Source: Methanomethylovorans hollandica DSM 15978 (lineage in GTDB: Archaea; Halobacteriota; Methanosarcinia; Methanosarcinales; Methanosarcinaceae). Taken from it: DNA of 64,000 nt. Both the position numbers and the translations under genes were made by a program. The notes below the pieces were generated by a model. The model did not search any database, had not been told where the DNA came from, and saw only the letters and a list, made by a program, of their open reading frames with translations. The DNA is taken from contig NC_019977.1 of NCBI RefSeq assembly GCF_000328665.1, positions 806,001 to 870,000 on the forward strand, read 5' to 3'. Below are positions 36,511 to 40,904 of the stretch, in pieces. Within the stretch, counting starts at the first letter, position 1; every line of letters starts with the position of its first letter.

Positions 36511-36966
36511 TCACTTTATCTTGAACTTAACTCCTATTTTGAACAGCTGGGTGGTTGGCAGGTCCATCATTGGGCATTGGATCTCCTGCCTCAGTTCCTC
36601 AAGTATTTCCTGCAGGCGCTGGCTGCTGGGTGCGGAGAGTGTGAACCATATATTATAATCCCCCGGGCGCAGATAGTTATGTGATACTTCCGGATAGGAA
36701 TTTATTAGTTCTGCAATACGCTCTATTTTCTCTTCCGGAGCTTTCAACGCAACAAGAGTACCTACACGCCCGGTTTCTTTGCTGTTAATAATAGGTCCTA
36801 TACGTCTTATAGCTCCTTCATCCAAGAGGTGTTGCATGCGCTTGACCACTTCATCCTCGGGGATCCCTGTCTTATCTGCCAGTATCCTGAAAGGATGTGT
36901 ATCAAGTGGAAAATCCAGTTGTACAAGATTCAGGAGTTTCTTATCTGTTTCATCTATCCGGATCAT
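36511..36966 (-). CDS. ahbA: Siroheme decarboxylase subunit AhbA
   Basis: The 151-residue Lrp-like partner of AhbB starts IRIDETDKKLLNLVQLDFPLDTHPFRILADKTGIPEDEVVKRMQHLLDEGAIRRIGPI. Its ligand domain contains VSHNYLRPGDYNIWFTLSA (about 97-115). Pairs of such proteins adjacent to hem genes are diagnostic of the siroheme-dependent heme pathway. The ATG at 36966 has GAGG 6 bases upstream and overlaps the ahbD 3' end by 17 bases; a longer frame (to 37086) lies entirely inside ahbD and is rejected. Although built like a regulator, its role is enzymatic. Confidence 0.88.
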   Translation of the reverse strand: MIRIDETDKKLLNLVQLDFPLDTHPFRILADKTGIPEDEVVKRMQHLLDEGAIRRIGPIINSKETGRVGTLVALKAPEEKIERIAELINSYPEVSHNYLRPGDYNIWFTLSAPSSQRLQEILEELRQEIQCPMMDLPTTQLFKIGVKFKIK

Positions 36967-38038
36967 GTGAATCCTCGTTTTTAGGTATATATATGCAATA
37001 TGGTTCTTCAGCGAGGTAGTCTCCTGTTGCTGCATAAGCTCTTGCTCTGCATCCGGAGCATACATTTTTGAATTCGCATCTGCCACATTTGCCTTTCAAT
37101 CTGGAAGTGTCTCTCAGGTCTCTGAAGACCCGGGCATCTGTCCAGATATCCCTAAAGGGCTGCTGCCTTATGTTCCCTGCAAGTACCGGCAGGTATCCGC
37201 AGGGGTACACATCACCTGTACTGGAGACAAAGCAAAAACCGGTGCCACCAAGACAACCTTTTGTCATTGCCTCGTATCCGTGCGTTTTGACCGAGACCTC
37301 AATACCCTCTTTCTTGGCACGCTGGCGCATTATTCGGAAATAATGGGGTGCACATGTTGCCTTCAACTGGATAGGTGTTGTTTTTTGCTGGTCATAGAAC
37401 CAGTTAAGGACACGTTCATACTCAACAGGCGGTATCTCTTCATTTTCCAGTTCTTTACCTCGGCCTGTGGGTACAAGCAAAAATATATGTAATGCCTCTG
37501 CACCAATCTCCTCTGCCATTCTTAGGATATGAGGTATTTCATCAACATTCCTTTTTGTAACAGTGGTATTTATCTGGAACTCTATACCTGCTTTTTTAAG
37601 TGCTTCTATGCCTTTCATGGAGCCTTCAAAAGCACCCGGAACACAGCGAAAATCGTCATGGAAATCTGCCGTAGCGCCATCGAGGCTTACACTCACCCTT
37701 TTGATACCTGCTTCAAGAAGCTGTTTTGCAACCTCCTCAGTGACAAGGGTTCCATTTGTGGCAAGCACAACCCTTAGCCCTTTTTCGGTACCGTAATGTG
37801 CTAGTTCGTAGACATCTCTTCTTACAAGAGGTTCACCACCACTAAGGATCAAAATGGGATTGCCCATTTCCACTATCTCGTCTATGAAATGTTTTGCTTC
37901 CTTAGTGTTAAGCTCTCCTTCAGGTATCTGTGAAGTAGAGGCTCCTCTGCAGTGTTTGCAAGAAAGGTTACAGCCCGCGGTAAGTTCCCATGCAATTAAT
38001 CTGGGAGGTTTGAAAGAAGGCTCAATATTTTGTTCCAT
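36950..38038 (-). CDS. ahbD: Radical SAM heme synthase AhbD (Fe-coproporphyrin III decarboxylase)
   Basis: The 362-residue protein has the radical SAM cluster CNLSCKHCRGAS (CxxxCxxC, about 23-34) and the SAM motif LSGGEPLVRRDVYEL. A SPASM-type C-terminus carries CLGGTGFCFVSSTGDVYPCGYLPV and CGRCEFKNVCSGCRARAYAATGDYLAEEPYC. The EFQINTTVTKRN and HIFLLVPTGRG segments match AhbD, which converts the two propionates of Fe-coproporphyrin III to vinyls, making protoheme. The ATG at 38038 is chosen (GAGATC upstream); a GTG at 38107 gives 23 more residues and cannot be excluded. The AhbC partner (deacetylase) is not in the window. Confidence 0.88.
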   Translation of the reverse strand: MEQNIEPSFKPPRLIAWELTAGCNLSCKHCRGASTSQIPEGELNTKEAKHFIDEIVEMGNPILILSGGEPLVRRDVYELAHYGTEKGLRVVLATNGTLVTEEVAKQLLEAGIKRVSVSLDGATADFHDDFRCVPGAFEGSMKGIEALKKAGIEFQINTTVTKRNVDEIPHILRMAEEIGAEALHIFLLVPTGRGKELENEEIPPVEYERVLNWFYDQQKTTPIQLKATCAPHYFRIMRQRAKKEGIEVSVKTHGYEAMTKGCLGGTGFCFVSSTGDVYPCGYLPVLAGNIRQQPFRDIWTDARVFRDLRDTSRLKGKCGRCEFKNVCSGCRARAYAATGDYLAEEPYCIYIPKNEDSHDPDR

Positions 38039-38258
38039 ATTGATCTCAAAGGTTTTAGTTATTTTTTTGTATTCAAGCTCATAAATTTCAGTGCCTATCT
38101 TTGGCACTTCATATCTTATGACAATCGACTTAAATAGGATGTGTCTATACTCACTAACCCATATTAATAATTAGTTGTGTTACTTAAAGATGCGGACATA
38201 TAATTATGATGTATGGGCATTTGTTTACAGATGATCAGTATGCAATAAAGGTGGTAAT

Positions 38259-38387
38259 ATGGAAGCTTTCGTTATTGCCTTCTTTGTAACCTGGATAGTT
38301 ATACTTTTATATATCCTTCGCATGATTAGGACTTATTACTATTTGCAACGTGAGATAAACATACTTAAGAAAGTGGATGGGAATTGA
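38259..38387 (+). CDS. ccmD: CcmD-like small membrane protein
   Basis: A 42-residue protein, MEAFVIAFFVTWIVILLYILR followed by MIRTYYYLQREINILKKVDGN. One transmembrane helix near the N-terminus, then a basic, coiled helix: the exact layout of CcmD, the small subunit that releases holo-CcmE from the CcmABC complex. GGTGG lies about 5 bases before the ATG. Its stop is 8 bases before the chosen ccmE start. The family is too short for reliable homology by eye, so the call rests on size, topology and the ccmE neighbour. Confidence 0.65.
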   Translation: MEAFVIAFFVTWIVILLYILRMIRTYYYLQREINILKKVDGN

Positions 38388-38394
38388 GCTAGGT

Positions 38395-38775
38395 ATGGAA
38401 AAACAGCAAAAAACTATTGCAGTAATCCTGTTCGTAGTATTGGTTGCGGTGATCGGTCTGTGGGGGGTTGATTTTTCCCAGAGTTATTTAATGGTATCCG
38501 ATTTGGCAAACGATCCACAGTCTCATATAGGGAATGAGGTCAATACTATGGGCAATATAAAGAACGGGACTTTACAGGTAGTACCGGGAGTAATTACCTT
38601 TTCACTGGTAGATCTGGAGGATCATGTATCTGAGATCCAGGTGCAATATACTGGAGATCTGCCTGCAAGTTTTGTTGAAGGACAGGGTATCAGTCTGAGC
38701 GGGACCATGGTTTCTGCTCAGAAGATAGAAGCTCACCAGATAGTGATGGGTTGTCCATCTAAATATACTGAATAA
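38395..38775 (+). CDS. ccmE: Cytochrome c maturation heme chaperone CcmE (CX3Y type)
   Basis: The 126-residue protein has an N-terminal membrane anchor (about 7-25). A beta-barrel OB domain follows: YLMVSDLANDPQSHIGNEVNTMGNIKNGTL, TFSLVDLEDHVSEIQVQYTGDLPASFVEGQGISLSGTM. The C-terminal MGCPSKYTE carries Cys-120 and Tyr-124. Standard bacterial CcmE binds heme through HxxxY. The CxxxY form seen here is the variant known from archaea and some sulfate reducers. CcmE carries heme from CcmC to the c-type apocytochrome. The ATG at 38395 is preferred; ATG at 38377 overlaps ccmD. The other ccm genes (A, B, C, F) are not in this window. Confidence 0.85.
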   Translation: MEKQQKTIAVILFVVLVAVIGLWGVDFSQSYLMVSDLANDPQSHIGNEVNTMGNIKNGTLQVVPGVITFSLVDLEDHVSEIQVQYTGDLPASFVEGQGISLSGTMVSAQKIEAHQIVMGCPSKYTE

Positions 38776-38785
38776 TGTCATGTAA

Positions 38786-39685
38786 ATGGCAAATCAAGAT
38801 ATTGGAAATGATGTAATTATGACGAGAGTCGAGGATTTTGAGGAGTACAGGCAGATCAATCTAGCACTTGCTGATCTTGTCCAGAAGATGGATGACTCTT
38901 CTCCGATGAAAAAGTTATTAGATCACGTATGCAGTTCGGGTGGCAAAAAAATAAGGCCTCTTATCCTGATGCTCTCCACAGAAGTGTGTGATGGGGAGAA
39001 GAACAAGGCTATAGATGCTGCACTTGCCATAGAGTTGATACACTCAGCTTCTCTGATCCATGATGATCTTCTTGATGGTGGTATTCTAAGAAGGGGAATC
39101 CCTTCGGTACATGAGAAATATGGAATTGCTGCTGCACTTCTTTGTGGTGATTTTCTCATCTCTAAGGCAATAACGCTGATTTCCCCTTATGGGCATGATG
39201 CCGTCCAGGAGTTCGGAAGTGCAGGAATGCACATGGCGGAAGGGGAAACTATTGACATAAGGAGTATGAACGAGGAATTCAGGCTGAAGCACTATTTTGA
39301 TTGCATAAATAAAAAAACAGCTTCCCTGTTTGCGTCCAGTGCGGCTATAGGTGCATATATTGCAGGTTGTAGCAAGGATGATGCTCTGAGATTCCATGCT
39401 TTCGGAGAGAATGTGGGTATAGCATATCAGATCGTAGATGATCTTCTGGAGTTCCTGGAAGAGCTGGAAGACAAAAAGTCCACACAAGAATCAGTTACAT
39501 TACCTCAAATATACAGTCGTGCCCTGGGACGTGAGCAGGCAGTACAACGAACCATTGCTGAGGTGCACAGATATGTGGGGTTTGCCAAAGCTCTGCTGAG
39601 TTCTTTCAAATCATGTGCTGCAAGGGAAAAATTACTGCTTATCACAGATCATATAACTATCGACCTTCTTCCGAGCAGGGTATGA
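38786..39685 (+). CDS. Polyprenyl diphosphate synthase
   Basis: The 299-residue trans-isoprenyl diphosphate synthase has GGKKIRPLILML (about 53-64) and the first Asp-rich motif HDDLLDGG (about 91-98). RRGIPSVHEKYG, GDFLISKA and a second motif reading VDDLLEFLEE (about 217-226) follow. The last acidic residue of the second motif is Glu instead of Asp. It elongates allylic diphosphates with isopentenyl diphosphate. Its position 11 bases after ccmE and upstream of a radical SAM gene suggests a side chain for a respiratory quinone-like carrier such as methanophenazine rather than lipid GGPP; that is inference. An internal ATG at 38819 is an alternative start. Confidence 0.88.
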   Translation: MANQDIGNDVIMTRVEDFEEYRQINLALADLVQKMDDSSPMKKLLDHVCSSGGKKIRPLILMLSTEVCDGEKNKAIDAALAIELIHSASLIHDDLLDGGILRRGIPSVHEKYGIAAALLCGDFLISKAITLISPYGHDAVQEFGSAGMHMAEGETIDIRSMNEEFRLKHYFDCINKKTASLFASSAAIGAYIAGCSKDDALRFHAFGENVGIAYQIVDDLLEFLEELEDKKSTQESVTLPQIYSRALGREQAVQRTIAEVHRYVGFAKALLSSFKSCAAREKLLLITDHITIDLLPSRV

Positions 39686-39719
39686 GTTCTTCTATTTATT
39701 TCAATTTCAAGGTGAACGG

Positions 39720-40904
39720 ATGCGAGTATACGATAGATCAGTTATCAAAATAGATGCAGGTATAGATAATGGAAAAGTAGTGCTTGAAAGTGAAGGAGCA
39801 TTAAGTCCTATTGCCAAACCTATCATTAGCAAGATAAATGATATCTTCCGGGAAGAGAAGCCCATATATGTCGATGATGAAAACATTGTTTTTTCAACGT
39901 GGGTACCTCCTGTACCTGGTGAGGTGTTCAACAGGCTCATAAGTGCAGAAATAAGCTCTATACTCAGAAAAAGGGTTCCAGATCAGCTTTCCATTGGGAT
40001 CACCTCAAGATGTCCTAACAATTGCATTCATTGTGGGGCAGCTGATATCATTGCAAAGACAGAGCTTACCGTTGAGCAGATCAACGGTGCAGTTTCACAG
40101 TCTATTGAACTTGGCTCTTACTATATTTCCTTTGATGGAGGCGAGACCATGATGCGCAATGATCTCACTGAAATGGTAAAGGCGGTTGACAAGAGCAAAG
40201 CAATTGCTGCCTGTTTTACTTCCGGGTTCAGGCTCACCGAAGAAAGGGCGAAGGATCTGAAGGCTGCAGGTCTTTATGCAACGCATATAAGTATTGATAG
40301 TCCCCGGGAAGAGGAACATGACCGGGTCAGAGGGCGTGAGGGGGCTTTCAAGGACAGTTTGCAGGGGATCAAAAGTACTTTGGAGGCAGGCATATTAGCT
40401 GACATGTTCGTAGTTGTTTCACCTCACAACATCGATGATCTTGAGGACTTCTACGGGCTTGCCGAAAACTTAGGTATGCATGAATTATCCATCTATGAGA
40501 TCGTTGCAGTTGGGCGTTGGCTGGAACATGAGGATGAGGTAATTTCGGATTCAGATGTGAAGATGCTGGGCCGATTCCAAAAAGAAAAGAACAGGAAATC
40601 AGAAGGTCCCAGGGTAACAGCTCTTCCGTATTTCATGGGTCCTGACCAGTTCGGTTGTTTCGCCGGCAGAAGATGGATGCATGTCACACCCGCTGGAGAT
40701 GTTCTTCCTTGTGCTTATACTCCACTTTCTTTTGGAAATTTAGTTGAGGAAGAATTAAATGTAATCTGGAAGCGCATGGGGCAACATGATGCATACAGAA
40801 AGAATGCAGATTTTTGCAGGATGCGGGACCAGAGATTCAGGCAAAAATACATTCATGTTATTCCCAAAGAAGCTGCTTTGCCATTAAGGCTTGACAGACT
40901 TTAA
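39720..40904 (+). CDS. Radical SAM/SPASM enzyme of unknown function
   Basis: The 394-residue protein has an N-terminal domain (about 1-90, RVYDRSVIKIDAGIDNGKVVLESEGALSPIAKPIISKINDIF). The radical SAM cluster is ITSRCPNNCIHCGAAD (CxxxCxxC, about 98-105), and the SAM-binding motif SFDGGETMMRNDL follows. The C-terminal SPASM region includes GCFAGRRWMHVTPAGDVLPCAYTPLSFGNL and FCRMRDQRF. It follows the prenyl synthase by 34 bases. The Cys motif context (NNCIHCGA) is unlike AhbC and unlike AhbD. A role in prenyl-phenazine or cytochrome maturation is possible from context only. Confidence 0.75.
   Translation: MRVYDRSVIKIDAGIDNGKVVLESEGALSPIAKPIISKINDIFREEKPIYVDDENIVFSTWVPPVPGEVFNRLISAEISSILRKRVPDQLSIGITSRCPNNCIHCGAADIIAKTELTVEQINGAVSQSIELGSYYISFDGGETMMRNDLTEMVKAVDKSKAIAACFTSGFRLTEERAKDLKAAGLYATHISIDSPREEEHDRVRGREGAFKDSLQGIKSTLEAGILADMFVVVSPHNIDDLEDFYGLAENLGMHELSIYEIVAVGRWLEHEDEVISDSDVKMLGRFQKEKNRKSEGPRVTALPYFMGPDQFGCFAGRRWMHVTPAGDVLPCAYTPLSFGNLVEEELNVIWKRMGQHDAYRKNADFCRMRDQRFRQKYIHVIPKEAALPLRLDRL

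Follow-up and report, generated by a model that had tools for sequence, protein, structure and literature searches.

The adjacent genes for a prenyl diphosphate synthase and a radical SAM protein (P1) in Methanomethylovorans hollandica DSM 15978 are likely to belong to an anaerobic pathway of methanophenazine biosynthesis, with P1, its paralogues P2 and P3, a UbiA prenyltransferase and a geranylgeranyl-reductase-like flavoprotein as the other components identified. In cytochrome-containing methanogens methanophenazine carries electrons in the membrane, and it is thought to do so in several methane-oxidising archaea as well. The type of the synthase and its role in methanophenazine are already known, and this half of the proposal is not new; the new part is the radical SAM family P1–P3, which was previously unassigned. 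Six gene types (synthase, P1, P2, P3, UbiA and reductase), most of them common to the tested families, narrow the pathway question to a short list of genes, and the set can be used as a genomic marker for methanophenazine versus menaquinone in uncultured archaea. Excerpts of PMC7327174, PMC6315138 and PMC8546582 state that the biosynthetic genes of methanophenazine are not known apart from the chain synthase.

The gene pair and its neighbourhood

The window is a stretch of 64,000 nucleotides of the M. hollandica genome (positions 806,001 to 870,000 of NC_019977.1), and coordinates are those of the window unless another locus is named. The genes discussed are the following.

38259..38387, + strand: CcmD-family ORF of 42 amino acids, overlapping the start of ccmE, outside the pathway
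38377..38775, + strand: ccmE of the CXXXY type, a conserved neighbour, not counted in the pathway
38786..39685, + strand: synthase ORF of 299 amino acids, (all-E) prenyl diphosphate synthase, geranylfarnesyl (C25) diphosphate synthase group
39720..40904, + strand: radical SAM P1 ORF of 394 amino acids, member of a three-paralogue family

Ten bases separate ccmE from the synthase and 34 bases separate the synthase from P1, all on the + strand; the ORF coordinates thus bear out the arrangement given in a preliminary description made from the sequence. Upstream, on the opposite strand, are AhbD and other haem genes, and 206 bases 3' of P1 is the gene for an ATP-synthase-type coiled-coil subunit, followed by the A-type ATP synthase operon. 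The synthase is found directly 5' of P1 in 117 of the 125 genomes having both listed, an adjacency too regular to be chance; all eight exceptions are genomes of family f4. A similar setting is described in a passage of PMC3017947 for Mmah_1452 of Methanohalophilus mahii, close to haem genes and to the ATP synthase operon.

The small ORF that overlaps ccmE scores 29.1 bits against the CcmD family TIGR04391 (cut-off 24). Of 12 loci examined, 10, the Methanosarcina-type locus L040 among them, have a CcmD-like ORF directly 5' of ccmE, and all 10 ORFs pass the cut-off, at 27.6 to 48.0 bits. According to a passage of eLife 76970, archaeal genomes have no ccmD.

The synthase

The synthase is a PF00348 protein (179.5 bits). 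Its best match among 16 NCBIfam families is NF040627 (GFPS_Meth) at 362.9 bits, which leads the next family by 199 bits; GGPP_syn reaches 163.6 bits. As the curated cut-off of 600 bits is missed, the protein is named here a putative member of the C25 synthase group, not an equivalog. Among solved chains 3ipi is the nearest, identical at 145 of 283 aligned positions. The true start may be the ATG at codon 12. Two motifs can be located.

39062..39076, + strand: first Asp-rich motif DDLLD, with Ala at residue -5
39437..39451, + strand: second motif DDLLE, DDxxE across the group

The preliminary description had singled out DDLLE as a departure from DDxxD. The motif is indeed there, but it is not odd: DDxxE is normal for the group, being found in 14 of 14 sampled synthase relatives and in 3ipi. 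A small residue at -5 of the first motif goes with a longer chain as a rule, and the Ala found there would fit a longer chain. The window synthase carries Ala-Ser at -5/-4, versus Phe-Thr in the second PF00348 gene of the genome, which is of the GGPP type. The position beside ccmE and P1, together with a separate GGPP-type synthase in the same genome, is also that of the GFPS group. In M. mazei, MM_0789 is the geranylfarnesyl (C25) synthase for methanophenazine (Ogawa 2010, as cited in excerpts of PMC3017947, PMC9478090 and PMC8546582).

The other possibility, that the synthase is a lipid enzyme with only C20 GGPP as its product and that the pair is unrelated to methanophenazine, deserves next to no credence. 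PF00348 membership alone leaves product length unfixed and the NF040627 cut-off is missed, yet the C25 family outscores GGPP_syn by the figures above, the Phe-Thr arrangement belongs to the other synthase of the genome, and C25 is the product of the M. mazei enzyme (Ogawa 2010, as cited in the relevant passage of PMC3017947). The preliminary description had listed such a C20 enzyme as the contrary case; the genome holds a separate GGPP-type gene.

The radical SAM protein P1

P1 belongs to the radical SAM superfamily by its Pfam profile (PF04055, 75.9 bits, cut-off 29.5) together with its CX3CX2C motif, and it also passes the SPASM profile (PF13186, 36.4 bits, cut-off 21.5). Its parts are listed below.

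39720..39980, + strand: N-terminal domain, about residues 1-87, three strands and two helices, common to P1, P2 and P3
40011..40034, + strand: CPNNCIHC, the radical SAM [4Fe-4S] motif CX3CX2C
40656..40817, + strand: C-terminal auxiliary cluster site, C313, C331 and C366, CX12GX4C plus one

A full SPASM domain has a seven-cysteine motif that binds two clusters, and in a twitch domain three protein ligands bind an auxiliary cluster. An alignment of 54 family members, from which 8 cysteine-less P3 sequences were left out, has the radical SAM cysteines, C313 and C366 in all 54 and C331 in 52; the seven-cysteine motif is not found in it. The pattern suggests that the family binds one auxiliary cluster with three protein ligands, probably twitch-like and not a full SPASM. 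The earlier label of radical SAM/SPASM enzyme holds as far as the two profiles go, but the SPASM part is reduced to three conserved cysteines, not seven, and the cluster context named in the preliminary description is present and is an ordinary CX3CX2C.

A structure model of P1, made with 53 relatives, has a mean pLDDT of 91.6 and a pTM of 0.91. The nearest solved folds are SkfB (Z 25.9), SuiB (Z 24.8) and PqqE (Z 23.5), and most of the matches align over residues 61-380 only. By sequence, SkfB is again the best solved relative (85.9 bits), and the GDGT-MAS radical SAM enzyme is also among the relatives. The N-terminal domain had been called unusual; eight segments searched gave no convincing Pfam match, and the domain modelled alone (pLDDT 82.8) gave no convincing solved fold, with a best Foldseek E of 1.3 and a best VIA Z of 3.8. 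An RRE-like domain was considered here, given the three-strand start and the SkfB and SuiB matches; Pfam, Foldseek and VIA gave it no support.

These solved relatives are what speaks for P1 as a peptide maturase of the RiPP type whose conserved neighbourhood is incidental. We give this reading very little credence: no precursor-peptide gene was recognised in the neighbourhoods (ORFs of at least 60 amino acids, with smaller ones considered only around ccmE), and the N-terminal domain has neither an RRE-like Pfam match nor a convincing fold match.

A role for P1 in haem or cytochrome c maturation is very unlikely, although the neighbourhood invites it. In 12 of 21 compared loci ccmE, with its CcmD-family ORF, is directly 5' of the synthase or of P1; ahb haem genes are nearby; and the best NCBIfam family for P1 is AhbD (TIGR04545). 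However, P1 reaches no NCBIfam equivalog, its 129 bits fall far short of the 500 required for AhbD, and a separate gene at 36950-38107 is the true AhbD (623.6 bits). In the two f4 genomes examined, ccmE is beside the synthase and P1 is on a different contig. The MqnC-bearing Methanoperedenaceae, cytochrome-rich according to a passage of PMC7327174 and tentatively assigned to their family here, are without a close member of the P1 family.

Three paralogues and the P2 operon

P1 is one of three paralogues. In the Methanosarcinia genomes with a match in the phylum-wide sample (392 genomes, searched with a P1-orthologue profile at E<=1e-60), 78 of 79 carry three copies and one carries two. P1, P2 and P3 separate in the tree, where P1 and P2 are sisters, P3 is joined to an outside group A (100/98 support) and outside groups B and C are sisters. 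The P2 gene of M. hollandica (C2:236351-237478) lies in an operon, downstream of genes that encode a UbiA prenyltransferase (PF01040, 148.1 bits) and a geranylgeranyl-reductase-like flavoprotein, and the UbiA–reductase–P2 operon is also found in G150. P3 lies apart from P1 and P2, among housekeeping genes.

The CX3CX2C motif is missing from 10 of 96 family members examined; the 10 are P3 proteins and include those of all six Methanosarcina P3 loci. Examples are L077:9747-10961 (- strand) and 10 of the loci L084-L163, P3 genes of Methanosarcina and near relatives whose products lack both the radical SAM and the auxiliary cysteines. The rest of the protein is kept, making it a pseudo-radical-SAM protein. 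With its cysteines lost, P3 of the Methanosarcina type can do no radical chemistry there, which leaves only a role as partner.

Genes of the PF00881 nitroreductase family were seen near P2 in an f4 genome (L082:4279-5079) and near a paralogue in G250 (L065:4448-5236); both may be coincidental.

Distribution in Methanosarcinia and the contrast with menaquinone

A survey of the class found a family member in 197 of 237 genomes (E<=2.3e-59). The other 40 comprise 6 genomes of f2, 33 of f5 (g25 and g26, best E 2.3e-32 to 4.0e-14) and one genome, 57% complete, with no match. The synthase was found at E<=1e-40 in 170 of 237 genomes, a survey whose listing leaves the 47 genomes with no match unnamed: it is frequent in f1 (108/111), f4 (11/17), f6 (2/2) and f7 (48/50), and rare or missing in f5 (1/34), f3 (0/17) and f2 (0/6).

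P2-type UbiA, scored in 54 genomes, is sharply bimodal, at 444 bits or more in 32 of them (12/12 f1, 5/5 f3, 5/5 f4, 2/2 f6, 7/7 f7 and the f5 genome G076) and at 75 bits or less in the remaining 22. The reductase reaches at least 357 bits in 12/12 f1, 5/5 f3, 4/5 f4 (G027 excepted), 2/2 f6, 7/7 f7 and G076, as well as in 6/6 genomes of outside lineages; it stays at or below 209 bits in f2, f5 g25/26, G307 and G361.

The menaquinone enzyme MqnC (TIGR03699) shows the reverse pattern. It scores over the cut-off in 33 of 80 genomes, namely 27/31 f5 g25/26, 4/6 f2 and 2/2 f21, and in none of the 41 family-bearing genomes apart from G307, with M. hollandica also below. Families f5 and f2 are inferred to be the Methanoperedenaceae and GoM-Arc1 groups. 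Excerpts of PMC7327174 state that Methanoperedenaceae and GoM-Arc1 carry the futalosine pathway, basal ASW-3 excepted, that ASW-3 is inferred to use methanophenazine, and that Methanoperedenaceae have several multihaem cytochromes and cytochrome c oxidoreductases. Of the 80 genomes, G076 alone (f5, 67% complete) gave no MqnC match of any kind; there the synthase is adjacent to P1, and UbiA to the reductase. The gene set is present in lineages thought to use methanophenazine and missing from MqnC-bearing ones, with one doubtful genome in conflict. That genome, G307 (f21), has MqnC together with one P2-like copy, which groups with an f4 genome in the tree (100/100) and perhaps comes from a contaminating contig. 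The genomes are not independent, and the pattern within the class may reflect one or two loss events.

In f3 (G009-G025), P1, the P2-type UbiA and the reductase are present and the C25-type synthase is found in 0 of 17 genomes; each of the 5 genomes tested has a single PF00348 gene. This family is described as ANME-2-like, and a C20-tailed carrier is predicted for it from gene content.

An action of P1–P3 on membrane lipids or another isoprenoid, with the UbiA–reductase–P2 operon modifying ether lipids, is unlikely. The UbiA and geranylgeranyl-reductase families serve archaeal lipids too, as their NCBIfam matches indicate, and the GDGT-MAS enzyme is one of the solved relatives of P1. However, ether lipids are needed also by organisms that lack the set, and these keep other reductase paralogues; M. 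hollandica has a second, weak UbiA match elsewhere in its genome (62 bits) besides the separate GGPP-type synthase. The exclusion of MqnC is not something that a lipid role predicts.

Relatives outside the class

At E<=1e-60, 94 of the 392 phylum genomes have a family member. The marker mcrA was found in 218 of them, 137 outside Methanosarcinia. The preliminary description had expected the pair to be missing from methanogens without cytochromes; in keeping with this, the family is missing from 135 of the 137 mcrA-bearing genomes outside the class. The two carriers are G307 and G254, the latter assigned to Candidatus Methanohalarchaeum thermophilum HMET1, which has mcrA. PF02665 was tried as a marker for HdrE and proved weak: with E<=0.001 as the limit it matched in 29 of 57 genomes, M. 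hollandica not among them, and it has no match in 10 mcrA-bearing genomes of f8, f9, f17, f20, f26, f27 and f28.

Families f12, f18 and f22 (with relatives Methanocellales archaeon Yes46, UBA148 and Met33H) also have three paralogues; mcrA is missing from their sampled genomes and PF02665 from those tested. These mcrA-less lineages need not make methanophenazine. Single PF00348 genes occur in G241, G254 and G259, and two in G250.

The outside cluster of UBA148-type archaea and Methanohalarchaeum (L065, L066, L067, L068, L070 and L071) holds the three radical SAM paralogues and a PTO1314-like radical SAM protein, and further a reductase, a divergent UbiA and a protein with an NMT1-like binding-protein fold; it was seen in the four outside genomes examined. 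In HMET1 a cluster of this type is split in two. The NMT1-like protein scores over 560 bits in 6/6 outside genomes; none of the other 48 exceeds 83.2 bits, and the protein was dropped as a candidate member of the Methanosarcinia set. G361 has a single distant family member (L072:9708-12295) beside a B12-binding radical SAM protein, and has neither reductase nor UbiA.

A proposed route to methanophenazine

The first isoprene unit of methanophenazine is saturated. A passage of PMC3017947 describes the carrier as a C25 chain ether-linked to phenazine. From the observed anatomy, synteny, operon structure and distribution we infer the chemical steps, their order and the substrate as follows. The synthase would make the C25 all-trans chain, as is known for its M. 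mazei counterpart. P1–P3 would most likely make or oxidise the phenazine nucleus through 5'-deoxyadenosyl-radical steps, with the substrate perhaps held at the three-cysteine auxiliary cluster. UbiA would join the chain to a ring oxygen, and the geranylgeranyl-reductase-like flavoprotein would saturate the ring-proximal isoprene.

The ring role of P1–P3 is reached by elimination, since synthase, UbiA and reductase cover the tail side and leave the ring over. P1 is also kept in f3, where the C25 synthase is lacking, and has relatives in outside genomes with a single PF00348 gene, which argues against the chain itself being what it acts on. The preliminary description had proposed that the pair makes or attaches the polyprenyl chain. 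Its link to methanophenazine is supported, but the radical SAM protein is probably not the maker or attacher of the chain, for which the UbiA protein of the P2 operon would be the natural candidate.

A fuller version can be put forward tentatively, and about it we are slightly more doubtful than convinced. P1–P3, with their private N-terminal domain, would form an archaeal route to the phenazine ring independent of phz, in which P3 of Methanosarcina would be a partner subunit that has lost its cysteines. The route would also have a second version, using the binding-protein-like enzyme, the extra radical SAM protein and the divergent UbiA; its genes would form one compact cluster in UBA148-type archaea and stand at two separate loci in Methanohalarchaeum. 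Family f3 would make a C20-tailed methanophenazine.

Several results count against the methanophenazine reading: the cysteine-less P3, the synthase-less f3, the mcrA-less outside lineages, G307, and the synthase score below the NF040627 cut-off.

Searches in a collection of PMC papers found none that links a radical SAM enzyme to methanophenazine or that assigns the P1 paralogues or the UbiA–reductase–P2 operon to it. The nearest is a passage of PMC6315138 that lists UbiA-type transcripts as likely methanophenazine genes and names no radical SAM protein; a term search in PMC9012536 gave no mention of radical SAM.

Comparison with known systems

One of the closest known systems is that of MM_0789. 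The window synthase shares with it NF040627 as best family and, at the Methanosarcina-type locus L040, the same neighbours (ccmE, P1 and the ATP synthase operon). As its second motif this group has DDxxE, as does the solved relative 3ipi. A difference lies in the score of the window synthase, 362.9 bits against a cut-off of 600, and its C25 product is predicted.

P1 resembles SkfB, SuiB, PqqE, MoaA and AhbD in having a radical SAM core followed by a C-terminal auxiliary-cluster domain. It differs from this group in its three conserved auxiliary cysteines in place of seven, in an N-terminal domain of its own and in matching no equivalog.

Like the bacterial phz pathway, the proposed route would end in a product with a phenazine ring; in contrast, PhzF is reported in only some methanophenazine users, according to passages of PMC5244752 and PMC8470020.

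In outline, the route would work like the futalosine (mqn) pathway, in which an anaerobic membrane electron carrier is likewise made with radical SAM enzymes and a UbiA prenyltransferase. MqnA and MqnD have a binding-protein-like fold, of which the NMT1-like protein of the outside clusters is reminiscent. Unlike the futalosine pathway, however, the P1–P3 set consists of different enzymes, and its distribution and that of MqnC are mutually exclusive.
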